Shown: piece by piece, positions 10,462 through 37,286 of the stretch
How the letters are laid out: every line of letters begins with the position of its first letter
How positions within the stretch are numbered: the first letter of the stretch is position 1
From: Caldithrix sp.
Lineage (GTDB): Bacteria; Calditrichota; Calditrichia; Calditrichales; Calditrichaceae
Reading direction: 5' to 3'
Assembly: GCA_020720405.1 (NCBI GenBank)
Contig: DYOS01000008.1
Coordinates: 1-49,891 of the forward strand
DNA length: 49,891 nucleotides
The notes under the pieces: model-generated
Databases searched by the model: none
Seen by the model: the letters and a program-made list of their open reading frames with translations, nothing else
What the model was told of the DNA's origin: nothing
Translations under genes and position numbers: made by a program

Positions 10462-11859
10462 ATGTTAAAAACCATCATGTTCCTGTTGCTTTTTATTTGT
10501 ATTGGTCAATTATCTGCCCAGACCGATAAAGAAAAATTTTTCAGGGATTATGAAGCCGGTATTGATGATTTGCGGCGCAGGAACGCAGAAATCCTTTCAC
10601 CTGATTTTTTTAAAAAATCTATTGAAAACTACGAAGAGGCAGTTCGCTTGTGGGATGAGGGCAAGGGCCCGAAACGCACCCGGCCAAGCCTTGACAAATC
10701 GGCCGACTTTGTACGGCGAGCCAGCCACGTGGTTGAAATGATGAACACACACCTGCCTGAAGCCATCAGCAGCCGGGAAGACGCTCTTGCTTCAAGTGCA
10801 GCGCTTTTTTCTGAGTCGTTGTGGGAAAAAGGGGAGACTGCTTTCCACGAGGCAGCCATAGACATGGAAGAAAACAATTTGCGCAGCGCCCAAAAGAACG
10901 GAGAGGAAGCCAGGAATTTCTACCGCCAGGCCGAACTGGGTGCCATAAAAAACGGAATTTTGGGTGAGGCCCGTTCGGCTATTGCCCTGGCCGTGGAAGC
11001 CGAAGCTGAAAAATACTGTCCGAACACAATCAGCAATGCCCGGAAACAACTGACCGAAGCAGAAAACCTGCTTAATGACAATCGCTACGCCAAAGACCAG
11101 GCTATACAAAAAGCCAGAGTTGCCTTGTATGAAGGTCGGCATGCCCAATACCTGGCCCGGACTATCCTGGTGCTTTCAAAGAATGAACGTAACTGGGAAG
11201 GATTGATTTTAGGTTTCGAGGAAATTCTGATCAATATCACCAACCAGTTCAATCATCAGCCAATGTTTGATACCGGCTTCGACCCTGCAGCAAAAGCGGT
11301 TATGGCCTATATCGCCAATATCAAGAATGAATATAACCGGCTGACAGCCGAAAATGCCCAACTGCAGGAAGAACTGGGCATTGTAAAAGAAAAAGCGGAA
11401 GTTTCTTCTGCCCAGCTTCAGGCTCAGAAAAACCGGGAAAGAAAGATAAATAAAATCAAAGATCTGTTTAGTGAGGATGAAGCAAAAGTCATTTATCAGG
11501 GCGATCAACTTATTATCCGTTTACATGGTCTGAAATTTCCATCGGGTCAGGCTATTATTCAACCGGAGTATTTTTCAATGCTGACCAGGGTTCAACGGGC
11601 CCTGCAGGAATTTCCGGGCCAGCATTTTATGATTGAAGGACACACGGATAGTCAGGGTGCCAACGATGCCAACCTGCTCCTCTCAGAAAAGCGGGCTGCT
11701 GCAGTAAAGGAGTATCTGCTGGCCAATATGGGGCTGGATCCCGGACAGATAGATCATTACGGAATTGGCGAATCGCGGCCGGTTTTAAGCAATGAAACTG
11801 CCGAAGGCCGGGCCATGAACCGGCGCATCGAAATAGTCATCACGTTATCAGAATTATAA
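10462..11859 (+). CDS. OmpA-family envelope protein
   Basis: This 465-residue exported protein has a signal peptide (about 1-19, cleavage after LSA), a long helical region of TPR- or DUF4398-like character (about 20-230), a coiled-coil stretch (roughly 285-335), and a C-terminal OmpA domain from about 345. The peptidoglycan-binding motifs are GHTDSQG at 393-399 and NRRIEI at 453-458. It should sit in the periplasm and hold the cell wall. No lipobox cysteine is seen. The ATG at 10462 is chosen because GAGGA lies six bases upstream; in-frame GTG and ATG codons at 10450 and 10456 precede or overlap it. Confidence 0.88.
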   Translation: MLKTIMFLLLFICIGQLSAQTDKEKFFRDYEAGIDDLRRRNAEILSPDFFKKSIENYEEAVRLWDEGKGPKRTRPSLDKSADFVRRASHVVEMMNTHLPEAISSREDALASSAALFSESLWEKGETAFHEAAIDMEENNLRSAQKNGEEARNFYRQAELGAIKNGILGEARSAIALAVEAEAEKYCPNTISNARKQLTEAENLLNDNRYAKDQAIQKARVALYEGRHAQYLARTILVLSKNERNWEGLILGFEEILINITNQFNHQPMFDTGFDPAAKAVMAYIANIKNEYNRLTAENAQLQEELGIVKEKAEVSSAQLQAQKNRERKINKIKDLFSEDEAKVIYQGDQLIIRLHGLKFPSGQAIIQPEYFSMLTRVQRALQEFPGQHFMIEGHTDSQGANDANLLLSEKRAAAVKEYLLANMGLDPGQIDHYGIGESRPVLSNETAEGRAMNRRIEIVITLSEL

Positions 11860-29892: not shown

Positions 29893-30573
29893 TTGATTGA
29901 TTTAAACGATTTATCACTGATTCCATTATTCTCGGAATTAAAAGATGAAGACCTTCAAAAACTGTCTGAAACTATGATCAGGCAGGTCTACAAAAAAGAT
30001 AACATGGTTTTGATTGAAGAAGAAATTGGCACAACGATGTTTGTTATCCTCAGTGGCCGGGTAAAAATTTCACGGATCAGCGATGAAGGCCGTGAGGTTA
30101 TTTTATCGGTACTTTGTGACGGAGATTTTTTTGGTGAAATGTCTATTTTGGATGGTCAGACCCGCAGCGCTAATGCGGTTACACTCGAGGATACCGAAAT
30201 GCTGATCATTCGCAAAGAACTTTTTCTGCAAATGCTATATGATTATCCGCAGATTGCCATCAATCTGCTCAAGGAACTTGCCCATCGTCTGCGCCGCAGC
30301 GATTCCCAAATAAAAAGCCTTTCGCTGCAAAATGCCCTGGGTAAAGTAGCATCAACTATCCTGCGCATTGCCGACGACTCCGGAATTATCCGTCAGGGTC
30401 AGGTTGAGATCGCCCAATTACCACCGCAGCAGGACCTGGCCAACATGGCCGGAACCAGCCGTGAGACGATTTCCCGGGTTATTAAATCGCTCAATCAACT
30501 GGGTTATGTCAAAAAACATGGTGGCAAGTTGATTATCCTGGATTATAACAAGTTCAGACATGACTTTTCCTGA
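29893..30573 (+). CDS. Crp/Fnr-family transcription regulator
   Basis: This 226-residue protein has a cyclic-nucleotide-binding-type beta barrel (about 10-120, with DGDFFGEMSILDGQTRSANA as phosphate-binding cassette) and a C-terminal winged helix whose recognition region is QQDLANMAGTSRETISRVIKS, starting at 179. The effector cannot be read; the cassette has the TRSA arrangement seen in cAMP-type proteins. The TTG start is well supported by AAGGAG at 29881-29886, which sits over the stop of the SPOR gene. The histidine kinase follows after six bases. Confidence 0.92.
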   Translation: MIDLNDLSLIPLFSELKDEDLQKLSETMIRQVYKKDNMVLIEEEIGTTMFVILSGRVKISRISDEGREVILSVLCDGDFFGEMSILDGQTRSANAVTLEDTEMLIIRKELFLQMLYDYPQIAINLLKELAHRLRRSDSQIKSLSLQNALGKVASTILRIADDSGIIRQGQVEIAQLPPQQDLANMAGTSRETISRVIKSLNQLGYVKKHGGKLIILDYNKFRHDFS

Positions 30574-30578
30574 TTCCG

Positions 30579-32666
30579 ATGATTAATGAGATTAGTAATA
30601 TTCTGCTGATTACAGATCGTGAAAACCGGACCCGACAAATATTTTCATTTTTCAATGATCCGACGCTGAGTATTCGGCAGTACCGGTTCGGTGATTTATT
30701 ACAAGGCCTGCCAAGTGATTTTCATCCGGAAATCATCATTTTTGACCTGGCCTCAAGCCCTTTGTTTGATAGGAAAACCCTGGAAATTCTACTTTCCAAT
30801 AAAATTTTTTCCGCTCCAGCCATCTTTATAACCCAAATTTCACAAACCAGCCTGCGCCAGATTCTCAGTGTCAGAACCGGAAGCCAGCTTCTTACAGATC
30901 CGGTTGATGCTGAAATTTTACAATCGGCCATTAACAGTATCGTCTATATCAGACAGCTTGAATACCGTAACCGAACCAGTCAGGAAATCGCCCGGCGGGA
31001 AAAACAACTGCTCAGCGTGGTTGATGAAATACTGGATATGTCCCGGTTTTATAACATAAAGAATCCATTTGAGATCAGGGCTGAATTAAAAACCGGCATT
31101 CTGCTGGGCCTGATCCAAACCCTTGGTGCGTCCACCGGTCTGGTCGCCGATCTGGCCGGTGAAACCATCAGCGGAACCCAATCCGACCGGCCTTTCCATC
31201 TGAGTCTAAAAAACAGCGCAATATTACCTGCCCTGGGCAATGGATTTCCCTTTATCGTCGAGGGAGATAAAAATCAGGATGTTCTGATTTCCGGTTTAAG
31301 CCAGATCACAGGTATCGCGGTTCAATCCTGCCTGATTATACCTGTAGCCGTTTTTCAACAAACGGAGATTGTCTTTTTCCTTTTTAATAAACAAACCGCT
31401 GACTGCTTCACGGAAATTGATCTGGCCTTTGCCTTTATTGCCGCGGCTAAAATTGCCCGTCACTGGGAGCAGCTCATCCTCGGGCCGGAAGGTCAGAACT
31501 ACAATCTTCCGGGGCTGCTGTCCGATGGGTTTAAATTCATCAAAGAATACCAGCTTTTATCCAATGTTCTGGCCGCTGTTCATTTCGGAATCATCATTTA
31601 TGATGAAAGCTTCAGGGTGCTGTTTCACAATGCTTCCGCCCAGCGGATACTGAAATCACATTTGCGGATTGCCGATACTCTGTTTGTTGAAAATTTTTTC
31701 AGTCCAAAGGATTTTGAGGTGATCAGTAAAAATCTTGATCTGAAAAAACTGCCGCTTATCCGCAATGAAATAAAAATCAGCGCTGAATACCCGGAAGATT
31801 TTTATATCGGTTATTCGGTCTATCCCTTTCTCTTCGAAAACGAAGTTCAGGCCGGGATGATGATTTTTTCCGAAATAAGCCAAACCAAGCGCATACAAGC
31901 CGAAATTATCCGCATGGACCGGATGGCTTCGCTTGGCGTGCTCAGTTCGGGCATTGCCCACGAAATCCGCAATCCACTGGCCGGTATCAAATCCATGGCC
32001 CAGGTTCTTGAGGAAGAAATGGATCCCAAATCGACGCACATCGAATATGTGGAACGGATTATCCGCCAGGTAAACCGACTCGACCAGCTTTTGAAAGCCT
32101 TTTTTACTTATGCCAAACCGGTCCGGCCCGATCCGCATGAAGTGCATATCTTCCGGATCACAAAAGAGGTTTTGCCTTTGTTAGACCGCAAATTCAGGGA
32201 GAATAAAATCCGGGTTATGGAATCCTATTCGAAGGATCTGCGGCCAATTTTTGTGGATTCCAACCAGATTCAACAGGTCCTGTTTAATCTGATATTAAAC
32301 GCAGTTGATGCCATGCCAGAGGGCGGCGCTCTTAAAATTTCCGCCCGCAATGCGACACGACCTTTAAAGCCACCAGTTGACCGGCGAAGCATTCATCAAT
32401 CACTCAACGCCAGCCAGTTTATTGAACTGGTTATTGCCGATAGCGGGAAGGGAATTTCTGCCTCAACCAGGGATAAAATTTTTACACCGTTCTTTACCAC
32501 CAAGGCCAACGGTACCGGGCTTGGCTTATCTATTGTTTACCAGATTGTCCGGGAGCATGGCGGGGAAATCGAAGTTTTTTCTCAGGAAGGTGTGGGAACA
32601 GAATTCCGGGTTTTACTGCCCTCTTTTGGCAGGATTCAGGAAGACCCACCGCAGATTATTACTTAA
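30579..32666 (+). CDS. Soluble histidine kinase with receiver-like N-terminus
   Basis: This 695-residue kinase has no membrane segment. Its N-terminus (8-120) folds like a receiver: an acceptor-like D is kept in IIIFDLASS but the conserved lysine is replaced (LTDPVD). A GAF-like region follows (about 170-300), then a PAS-like region (about 320-430), the dimerisation/phosphoacceptor domain with H461 in IAHEIRNP, and a complete HATPase (N-box, DSGKGIS, GTGLGLSI, to residue 690). The kinase core resembles NtrB-type proteins. No response regulator is adjacent; the NtrC-type activator at 13.7 kb is one candidate partner. It is probably co-transcribed with the Crp-family gene. Confidence 0.9.
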   Translation: MINEISNILLITDRENRTRQIFSFFNDPTLSIRQYRFGDLLQGLPSDFHPEIIIFDLASSPLFDRKTLEILLSNKIFSAPAIFITQISQTSLRQILSVRTGSQLLTDPVDAEILQSAINSIVYIRQLEYRNRTSQEIARREKQLLSVVDEILDMSRFYNIKNPFEIRAELKTGILLGLIQTLGASTGLVADLAGETISGTQSDRPFHLSLKNSAILPALGNGFPFIVEGDKNQDVLISGLSQITGIAVQSCLIIPVAVFQQTEIVFFLFNKQTADCFTEIDLAFAFIAAAKIARHWEQLILGPEGQNYNLPGLLSDGFKFIKEYQLLSNVLAAVHFGIIIYDESFRVLFHNASAQRILKSHLRIADTLFVENFFSPKDFEVISKNLDLKKLPLIRNEIKISAEYPEDFYIGYSVYPFLFENEVQAGMMIFSEISQTKRIQAEIIRMDRMASLGVLSSGIAHEIRNPLAGIKSMAQVLEEEMDPKSTHIEYVERIIRQVNRLDQLLKAFFTYAKPVRPDPHEVHIFRITKEVLPLLDRKFRENKIRVMESYSKDLRPIFVDSNQIQQVLFNLILNAVDAMPEGGALKISARNATRPLKPPVDRRSIHQSLNASQFIELVIADSGKGISASTRDKIFTPFFTTKANGTGLGLSIVYQIVREHGGEIEVFSQEGVGTEFRVLLPSFGRIQEDPPQIIT

Positions 32667-35073: not shown

Positions 35074-36165
35074 ATGGTTCAAATCGGAAAAGTACTCAAG
35101 AATGTGCCCATTTTTAAGATGCTCGGGAAAGAGAGCATCGATTTTATTATCGAACGACTAAAACTTAAAACTTTTGCCCAGGGTGATACCGTTGTCCGCA
35201 TTGGCGATCCTGGCGATGAGATGTTTATTATTATGAGCGGAGAGGTGCGCATTTGTATCTATGCCGATGATCATTCCGAGCAAACGGTGGCCCGCTTAGG
35301 CGCCGGGGATTACTTCGGCGAGATGGCCCTTCTGACCGGCGAAACACGCTCCGCTTCGGCGATTGCCAATGAAGAATGTGAAATGTTCATTCTTCAGAAG
35401 AACGATTTCGATGTCATCCTTGAAAAATTTCCTTCAATCTCACTGAGTATGGGTAAAATAGTCAGCAAACGGTTGCGCGATATCCTTAAAAAAGCCAGCC
35501 AGATGCCTTCCGCCAGGCAGCTCGAATCGGCCGGAGGCCAGGGACCCAGTGGCAATCTGAAAGAAATTCCGCTGGTTGATCTGATAAGTTTTGCCGAGTC
35601 CAATTCGATGAACAGTACACTCAAGATAAAGCATGATGGAAAAACCGGCATTTTTAAATTTGAGACCGGTGTTTTGGTTTCAGTCAGCCTCGGTGAAATG
35701 AAAGATGATCAGGCGCTTGATACCATGCTGAACTGGACGGAAGGGGAGTTCGGTTTTGAGATCAAACCGCTGGAACTTCAGCGTTCGGCACCAAACAGTG
35801 CCGTAACCGATGAAACCCGGCATTTACTGATCGTTAATAACAGCCTGGTCGTCCGTAAGGTAATTGAACGCGCCTTCAAAGGGCTAGGCTATGAAGTTAC
35901 TACCACCCAAAATATTGCCCAGTCCCTTGATGTGATTGATACGAATAAACCCGATATTATCATCTCTGATGTTAAACTGGCCGATGGACATGGTCTTAGT
36001 TTTGTCGATCAGGTTCGCCTGAATAAGGATATTCCATTTATTTTTATTTCAGATAAAAGTCTGAAGTCCGAAATGGAAAGCCAGCTTATGGCCAGAGGTA
36101 AAGTCCAGTTCACCCGGACACATGAAGTGAGTGAAATAGTCAAATATGTAGAGAATTATATCTGA
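35074..36165 (+). CDS. cNMP-binding, DUF4388 and receiver-like protein
   Basis: This 363-residue protein combines three domains. Residues 8-130 are a cyclic-nucleotide-binding barrel with the cassette FGEMALLTGETRSASA at 81-96. Residues 162-235 are a DUF4388 (PATAN) domain, containing IPLVDLISFAESNSMNSTLKI. Residues 250-363 are a receiver with an acceptor-like D299 in IIISDVKLADG but asparagines N255 and N256 where metal-binding acids belong and R348 for the lysine, so normal phosphorylation is unlikely. There is no DNA-binding domain. The ATG at 35074 has GGGAG/AGG upstream. It overlaps the next, paralogous gene by one base. Confidence 0.85.
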   Translation: MVQIGKVLKNVPIFKMLGKESIDFIIERLKLKTFAQGDTVVRIGDPGDEMFIIMSGEVRICIYADDHSEQTVARLGAGDYFGEMALLTGETRSASAIANEECEMFILQKNDFDVILEKFPSISLSMGKIVSKRLRDILKKASQMPSARQLESAGGQGPSGNLKEIPLVDLISFAESNSMNSTLKIKHDGKTGIFKFETGVLVSVSLGEMKDDQALDTMLNWTEGEFGFEIKPLELQRSAPNSAVTDETRHLLIVNNSLVVRKVIERAFKGLGYEVTTTQNIAQSLDVIDTNKPDIIISDVKLADGHGLSFVDQVRLNKDIPFIFISDKSLKSEMESQLMARGKVQFTRTHEVSEIVKYVENYI

Positions 36166-37286
36166 TGGCTGTAGATCTGATTGAACATTTAAAACGTATT
36201 CCGCTTTTTACCAGCATTGCCGATGGGGATTTAAAGCTGATTGCTGAAAAATTTGAGGCAGCCAGTTATCAACCCGGCCAGATCATTATCAAGGAAGGGG
36301 AAGAGGGCAGACACCTTTATGTGATACTGGAAGGTCAGGTGCGGGTTGTCGCCGCCATTGATGATAATGAAAGTGAAATTACCTTATCCTTTCTGAATGC
36401 CGGTGATTATTTTGGCGAGATGGCTTTGATTACCGGAGAGCCCCGTTCAGCCACGGTGGTTGCAGAAACAGCTACCAAAACACTGACCCTGAATAAAAAA
36501 GATTTTGACTATATCATTCTGAAGAATCCGCAGGTCACCCTGTCGATCACGCATATTCTCAGCCAGAGATTGAAAAATGCCAACAAAGCCAGGAAAAATG
36601 CGGAAATTTCCTATCTGCAGCGCATTGCACCGCGCGGTTCGATCAATGAATTTAATGTGATTGACCTGATGAAATTCTGCGAGGAAAATTCCCTGAACGG
36701 CGAACTGATCATCGATCATGGTGAAGCGCAGGCCCGCTTTCTGTACCAGAAAGGTCAGTTGGAAAATTTGAGCCTTGGTGATTTGAAGGAAGAAGAAGTA
36801 ATGGACCAGGTTCTGAGTTGGGAGAGCGGTGATTTTATCATTGAGCCCCACCTCCTGGAGGTTGAAAAAACCGGTGATGTACCCGAACCGGCTCCTAAAT
36901 TTTTACTCCAAAACCAGGAAGCGTTCCGGCATTATATTGAAGAGAAACTGGCCAGTTTTATTTCCATCGCCGGGGTCAGGCTGACCCAAAGCGCGATCAA
37001 TAAGGCATATCATAAATTTGCCCAGTTTTTCCCGGCCGCACGGGATTTGTCCCTTAAAATTACCCCGGATATCATGGTTTCCTTCAGGGAAAATCTGAAC
37101 TGGAGCGATAAGCATACCCTGTTTATTGCTGTTCTCTTTCAGGATTTACAGAGCAGTCTGAGCCGGGATCTGATCGGTGCCGAATTCTGGAATTCAGCAT
37201 CAGCCGTTCCGGAAGTGAATAACAGTCTCGAAGAAAATCAGTATTTTACCTATTACAGAGAAGCGATTGAAATTATCAGGGCCTGA
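36165..37286 (+). CDS. cNMP-binding and DUF4388 protein
   Basis: This 373-residue protein is a clear paralogue of the preceding gene: cyclic-nucleotide-binding barrel (7-135, cassette FGEMALITGEPRSATV at 84-99) followed by DUF4388 (about 156-230, with FNVIDLMKFCEENSLNGELII). The receiver is missing; in its place is a helical C-terminus of about 120 residues that I do not recognise. The ATG overlaps the previous stop (TGATG), so the pair is made together and may form a heteromer. Its last 11 bases overlap the convergent LOG-family gene. Confidence 0.85.
   Translation: MAVDLIEHLKRIPLFTSIADGDLKLIAEKFEAASYQPGQIIIKEGEEGRHLYVILEGQVRVVAAIDDNESEITLSFLNAGDYFGEMALITGEPRSATVVAETATKTLTLNKKDFDYIILKNPQVTLSITHILSQRLKNANKARKNAEISYLQRIAPRGSINEFNVIDLMKFCEENSLNGELIIDHGEAQARFLYQKGQLENLSLGDLKEEEVMDQVLSWESGDFIIEPHLLEVEKTGDVPEPAPKFLLQNQEAFRHYIEEKLASFISIAGVRLTQSAINKAYHKFAQFFPAARDLSLKITPDIMVSFRENLNWSDKHTLFIAVLFQDLQSSLSRDLIGAEFWNSASAVPEVNNSLEENQYFTYYREAIEIIRA

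Follow-up and report, generated by a model that had tools for sequence, protein, structure and literature searches.

What would a bacterium do with two adjacent cyclic-nucleotide-binding (cNMP-binding) proteins that carry no DNA-binding domain? To our knowledge, what is understood of cAMP signalling in bacteria concerns CRP-type transcription factors almost exclusively, and the question is raised by two overlapping genes, here called A and B, in the genome of a Caldithrix species. The genes occupy positions 35074 to 37286 of the window, which is the whole stretch of 49,891 nucleotides that was analysed (GenBank assembly GCA_020720405.1, contig DYOS01000008.1, forward strand). They were compared with 40 genomes of the same class, in which families are labelled f1, f2 and so on, and with approximately 345 genomes outside it.

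Architecture of genes A and B

Both proteins consist of a cNMP-binding barrel (CNB) followed by DUF4388 (PF14332), which we take to be the PATAN domain, and a distinct C-terminal module.

35074..36165, + strand: gene A, cNMP-binding, DUF4388 (PATAN) and pseudo-receiver, 363 aa
35167..35427, + strand: A cyclic-nucleotide-binding domain, residues 32-118, PF00027 90.9 bits
35314..35355, + strand: A phosphate-binding cassette FGEMALLTGETRSA, Glu83 and Arg92 invariant in 35 orthologues
35548..35775, + strand: A DUF4388/PATAN domain, residues 159-234, PF14332 36.5 bits
35827..36162, + strand: A pseudo-receiver, residues 252-363, PF00072 48.9 bits
35836..35841 and 35968..35970, + strand: A pseudo-receiver sites, NN at residues 255-256 and Asp299
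36165..37286, + strand: gene B, cNMP-binding, DUF4388 and domain X, 373 aa
36264..36524, + strand: B cyclic-nucleotide-binding domain, residues 34-120, PF00027 90.5 bits
36411..36452, + strand: B phosphate-binding cassette FGEMALITGEPRSA, Glu85 and Arg94 invariant in 22 orthologues
36633..36860, + strand: B DUF4388/PATAN domain, residues 157-232, PF14332 24.6 bits, just below the cut-off of 25 (26.6 in the frame search; 32.5 in a B orthologue, L077)
36906..37283, + strand: B domain X, approximately 125 aa, without known relative; a separate gene beside A in f3, f5 and f6

Gene A begins at ATG 35074, with GGGAG approximately 12 bases upstream, and its orthologues align from their own 'MIQIxKIL', matching this start. 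A longer frame, from GTG 34996, is unsupported. An earlier note on this DNA had described overlapping, translationally coupled genes that share a cNMP barrel and DUF4388 and lack a DNA-binding domain, and this description held. The overlap is a single base (TGATG), the ATG of B at 36165 sharing the last A of the TGA stop of A, and adjacency is kept in relatives. The Pfam search of both proteins agrees with the domain assignments and found no HTH in A or B; the neighbouring Crp gene, by contrast, matches HTH_Crp_2. A and the cNMP-DUF4388 arm of B are paralogues.

Domain X and conservation of the locus

The C-terminus of B, which the earlier note had left without a family, comprises approximately 125 residues, for which searches of Pfam, NCBIfam, PHROGs and PDB gave nothing but isolated single-member matches at chance level. 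A profile built from this domain alone finds, in f3, f5 and f6, where B does not occur, a separate gene of approximately 127-136 codons directly 3' of A. Since the profile reaches this free X at 1e-7 to 1e-17, the X of B and the stand-alone X belong to one family. With a combined profile, X was identified as a single copy in 34 of the 40 class genomes and in none of the approximately 345 genomes outside the class. The possibility that X is a diverged receiver was rejected, as profile comparison with the pseudo-receiver of A gave a probability of 0.1%. AlphaFold run without an alignment returned a pLDDT of 36 for B and 45 for X alone, too low for either model to be used. Judged by the database searches that set it apart, X appears to be a previously undescribed domain family.

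Because f3, f5 and f6 encode X separately, in the gene next downstream of A, B is best read as the fusion of a second cNMP-DUF4388 arm to X, the dedicated partner of A, and the comparison among families marks the second arm as an addition in f1, f2 and f4. The view of the locus as tandem paralogues is therefore correct for the arms but misses the conserved partner of A, which is X and which stands alone in half of the families. In its gene arrangement, an X that is free beside A in some genomes and the tail of an A-like protein beside A in others conforms to the classical fusion pattern of interacting partners. When the tree of the CNB-DUF4388 arms was left free, all B sequences fell together, outside all A sequences; a tree joining B to the A of f1, f2 and f4 had a higher likelihood and was not rejected (p-AU 0.65). 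B evolves fast. A duplication in the ancestor of f1, f2 and f4, followed by fusion to X, is a possible origin of B and the simplest one.

Full-length A was found in 35 of the 40 class genomes. Of the five genomes lacking it, four have a completeness of 72-86%; in G038, the fifth (88%), A may simply be absent from the assembly, because X lies there 161 bases from the start of a contig. Outside the class, full-length A occurs in one genome (G092) of approximately 345, and this genome is without X. In every readable neighbourhood that contains A together with B or X, the latter is the next gene after A, and in 30 of 32 loci the spacing falls between -20 and +35 bases. In f1, f2 and f4 the gene directly 3' of A is B. 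The earlier note had set absence of the pair from relatives against its own proposal; instead, orthologous A and B genes stand side by side in approximately 20 genomes of these three families, with nearly all spacings in the same range. On this comparison the A-B pair is real and old rather than a product of chance, and it is very likely that A cooperates with B (or with X) in one signalling step. Two genomes, G025 (100% complete) and G030, have kept A and lost X, and the gene order suggests that A can work without X, because A persists there alone. At these loci (L050 after position 11336 and L043 after 6829) serS directly adjoins A and no remnant of X is left. In another genome (G019, L063:7101-8228), the B orthologue is broken by one TAA, its halves being otherwise conserved.

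The surroundings of the unit are of at least two unrelated kinds, OPT-A-B-LOG and xerD-A-X-serS. The order in f1 and f2 is Crp-HK-(OPT)-A-B-LOG, whereas A-X in f3, f5 and f6 lies between xerD (or a gene of the metallo-beta-lactamase fold) and serS-plsC-upp, with other genes following in f6; the gene names around A-X were read from the sequences and not from a family search. These contexts bear on the idea that A and B are co-regulators that modify the syntenic Crp-family protein (29893-30573) or the OPT transporter. In its favour, synteny is retained as Crp-HK-(OPT)-A-B across f1 and as Crp-HK-A-B across f2. Such a role is nevertheless highly improbable: in f2 no OPT gene separates HK from A, and in f3, f5 and f6 A-X is found elsewhere. 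The link to the neighbouring Crp or HD-GYP genes that the earlier note had suggested is not supported, given the same placement of A-X; outside f1 and f2 the gene order does not preserve an association with Crp, OPT or HD-GYP.

Predicted nucleotide binding and the pseudo-receiver

The Glu and Arg of the phosphate-binding cassette are invariant in 35 of 35 A and 22 of 22 B sequences, with consensus FGEM(A/S)LLTGE.RSA among A orthologues and FGEM(A/S)L(I/L)(T/S)GEPRSA among B orthologues. The best PDB matches of the CNB domain of B are PKA/PKG regulatory modules. Every one of the 40 class genomes encodes class III cyclases, and the genome of the window has four. From the cassette and the cyclases it is predicted, with near certainty, that cAMP or another cyclic nucleotide is a ligand of A and B. 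Many proteins of the CNB fold do not bind cNMP, and A and B could in principle be constitutive scaffolds whose barrels have lost their ligand; the invariant cassette residues in every A and B, together with cyclases in every class genome, argue against this, and we give it very little credence.

The earlier note had described the receiver of A as lacking an acidic pocket, which is correct for the metal-binding acidic pair but not for the phosphoacceptor. The pair is replaced by Asn255-Asn256 (N in 30 of 35 and 31 of 35 orthologues), while Asp299, the phosphoacceptor, is present and invariant in 35 orthologues. A thus departs from a phosphorylated response regulator in the absent acidic pair and in Arg348, which stands at the Lys position, while Asp299 is present and Ser326 takes the Thr position. 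Ser257, Leu302 and Asp304 are also invariant, the D+2 Lys is conserved, and the position of the conserved Lys varies (K, N, R); mean identity of the domain is 51% within f1, f2 and f4. Bourret and colleagues (PMC12632262) define a pseudo-receiver as a domain recognised as a receiver but without active-site residues, and by this definition the sequence of the A domain qualifies. Since the first position is non-acidic in approximately 20% of pseudo-receivers (PMC12632262), the conserved NN is uncommon.

It has to be considered that a histidine kinase, perhaps the one encoded at 30579-32666, may still phosphorylate A at Asp299, so that A integrates cAMP with two-component input. Asp299 is invariant, Thr/Ser and often Lys occupy the other catalytic positions, the D+2 Lys and Asp304 are conserved, and the kinase gene lies 2.4 kb upstream of A and is syntenic in f1 and f2. 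However, nearly all orthologues have Asn in place of the two acidic metal ligands, and with these goes the Mg2+ site that phosphotransfer requires; losses of this type are what defines a pseudo-receiver (PMC12632262), and the histidine kinase does not accompany A in f3, f5 and f6. Phosphorylation of A is consequently regarded as unlikely. As a pseudo-receiver, A would be a natural case of conserved replacement of the acidic pair, with a nucleotide probably serving as the alternative trigger; what triggers pseudo-receivers in place of phosphorylation has been named as an open question (PMC12632262). A-related proteins with DUF4388 and a pseudo-receiver, but without a cNMP domain, are encoded in family f5 (L101:1884-2741 and L102:4586-5314), and these have also lost the acidic pair.

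Proposed role and related systems

A and B probably form a soluble, non-transcriptional adaptor complex controlled by cyclic nucleotide, a reading that we favour with some reserve. Both CNB barrels would bind cAMP or cGMP supplied by the class III cyclases of the cell; on binding, the helix that follows the barrel would shift, as it does in CRP and in the regulatory subunits of PKA, and this helix is also the likely dimer contact. The PATAN domains would then relay the conformational change to the C-terminal module of each protein, which in A is the pseudo-receiver, working independently of phosphorylation, and in B is domain X. These modules would act by binding other proteins, so that the output would be neither DNA-binding nor enzymatic. 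In f3, f5 and f6 the adaptor would consist of A and free X, while in f1, f2 and f4 the mounting of X on a second cNMP-PATAN arm would make both halves responsive to nucleotide. Nucleotide binding, contact between A and B or X, the relay and the protein-binding output are all deduced from domain content and gene order. More broadly, and more tentatively, A may represent a class-wide cAMP/cGMP effector without DNA binding, in which a cNMP-PATAN-pseudo-receiver protein has X as its dedicated partner; in one lineage, the fusion of X to a second nucleotide-sensing arm would have produced a two-armed heteromeric sensor with output modules switched by nucleotide and not by phosphorylation. If this is true, cNMP signalling would extend to protein-level control through a conserved effector that has no DNA-binding domain, a unit present in nearly every complete genome of the class and paired with an orphan domain.

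Such an adaptor could be a regulator of type IV pili or of polarity: the PATAN domains of A and B would contact either the pilus extension motor PilB or the switch formed by MglA/MglB, and pilus extension would be tuned by cAMP. An output of this kind is plausible because cyanobacterial PATAN regulators act on PilB, binding PilB1 and PilC (PMC12288463; PMC7690835), and because PATAN genes have been located near mglA/mglB (PMC4316618). The genome of the window encodes PilB- and PilT-like ATPases, as well as an operon (L057:3350-6845, contig C30) that combines a DUF4388 gene with genes of the roadblock/LC7 and MglA-like GTPase types. On the other side, A and B lie away from pilus genes in every genome examined. 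A T2SSE ATPase was not found in G008 (94% complete) or G022 (92%), both of which carry A-B, an absence that gaps in these metagenome-assembled genomes could explain; in the single-contig genome G029, which encodes A and X, there was no PilT-like ATPase and only a weaker GspE-like match. By analogy, the type IV pilus motor is a plausible target but not a general one, and as an account of the locus the pilus or polarity reading is rather improbable.

The preferred reading, a nucleotide-controlled adaptor, can be compared with several known systems. The PATAN-CheY regulators of cyanobacteria (PatA, PixG, PixE and LsiR) resemble A in having PATAN/DUF4388 followed by a receiver, in being soluble and in lacking an HTH, but they have no cNMP-binding barrel and no X. 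Within the pair this arrangement is found in A only, B carrying X instead. In addition, PixG is described as phosphorylated, whereas A is without the metal site, and output to PilB, shown for the cyanobacterial proteins, is a conjecture for A and B. CRP/FNR-family cAMP receptor proteins share the CNB barrel, the complete phosphate cassette (FGEM...RSA) and the following helix; in A and B, PATAN with the pseudo-receiver or X takes the place of the HTH. In PKA/PKG regulatory modules, CNB domains likewise act as non-transcriptional switches, but no kinase partner or inhibitor sequence was seen for A and B, whose arms are joined to PATAN and the pseudo-receiver or X.

The component domains are known, while the combination of cNMP-PATAN-pseudo-receiver with partner X, and one domain family, appear to be new. 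The earlier note knew of no described system with the A-B arrangement, and no description of this combination was found in the accessible literature, most subscription literature being outside its scope. The same literature contains no co-mention of 'DUF4388' and 'cyclic nucleotide', the sole mention of DUF4388 being in a nitrite reductase study.

Several other DUF4388 loci were observed. Outside the class, a gene in G136 (L099:4955-6547) joins a Ser/Thr kinase, a cNMP-binding domain and DUF4388 and is a possible bacterial nucleotide-gated kinase; as in A and B, DUF4388 directly follows the CNB, but the kinase domain is present, and the pseudo-receiver and X are absent. The MglA/MglB-linked proteins of L057 share DUF4388 with A and B but belong to a roadblock/GTPase operon and have no CNB. 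The window's genome contains another overlapping pair of DUF4388 genes (L054:8917-11600, contig C93), the first with a receiver-like part, DUF4388 and a C-terminal part that by eye resembles a small GTPase, and the second with a receiver-like part and DUF4388. Finally, a CheB methylesterase that also contains two receivers and, internally, DUF4388 (L055:7173-10190, contig C95) adjoins a double-receiver protein with a weak DUF4388 match and a CheW-like gene.
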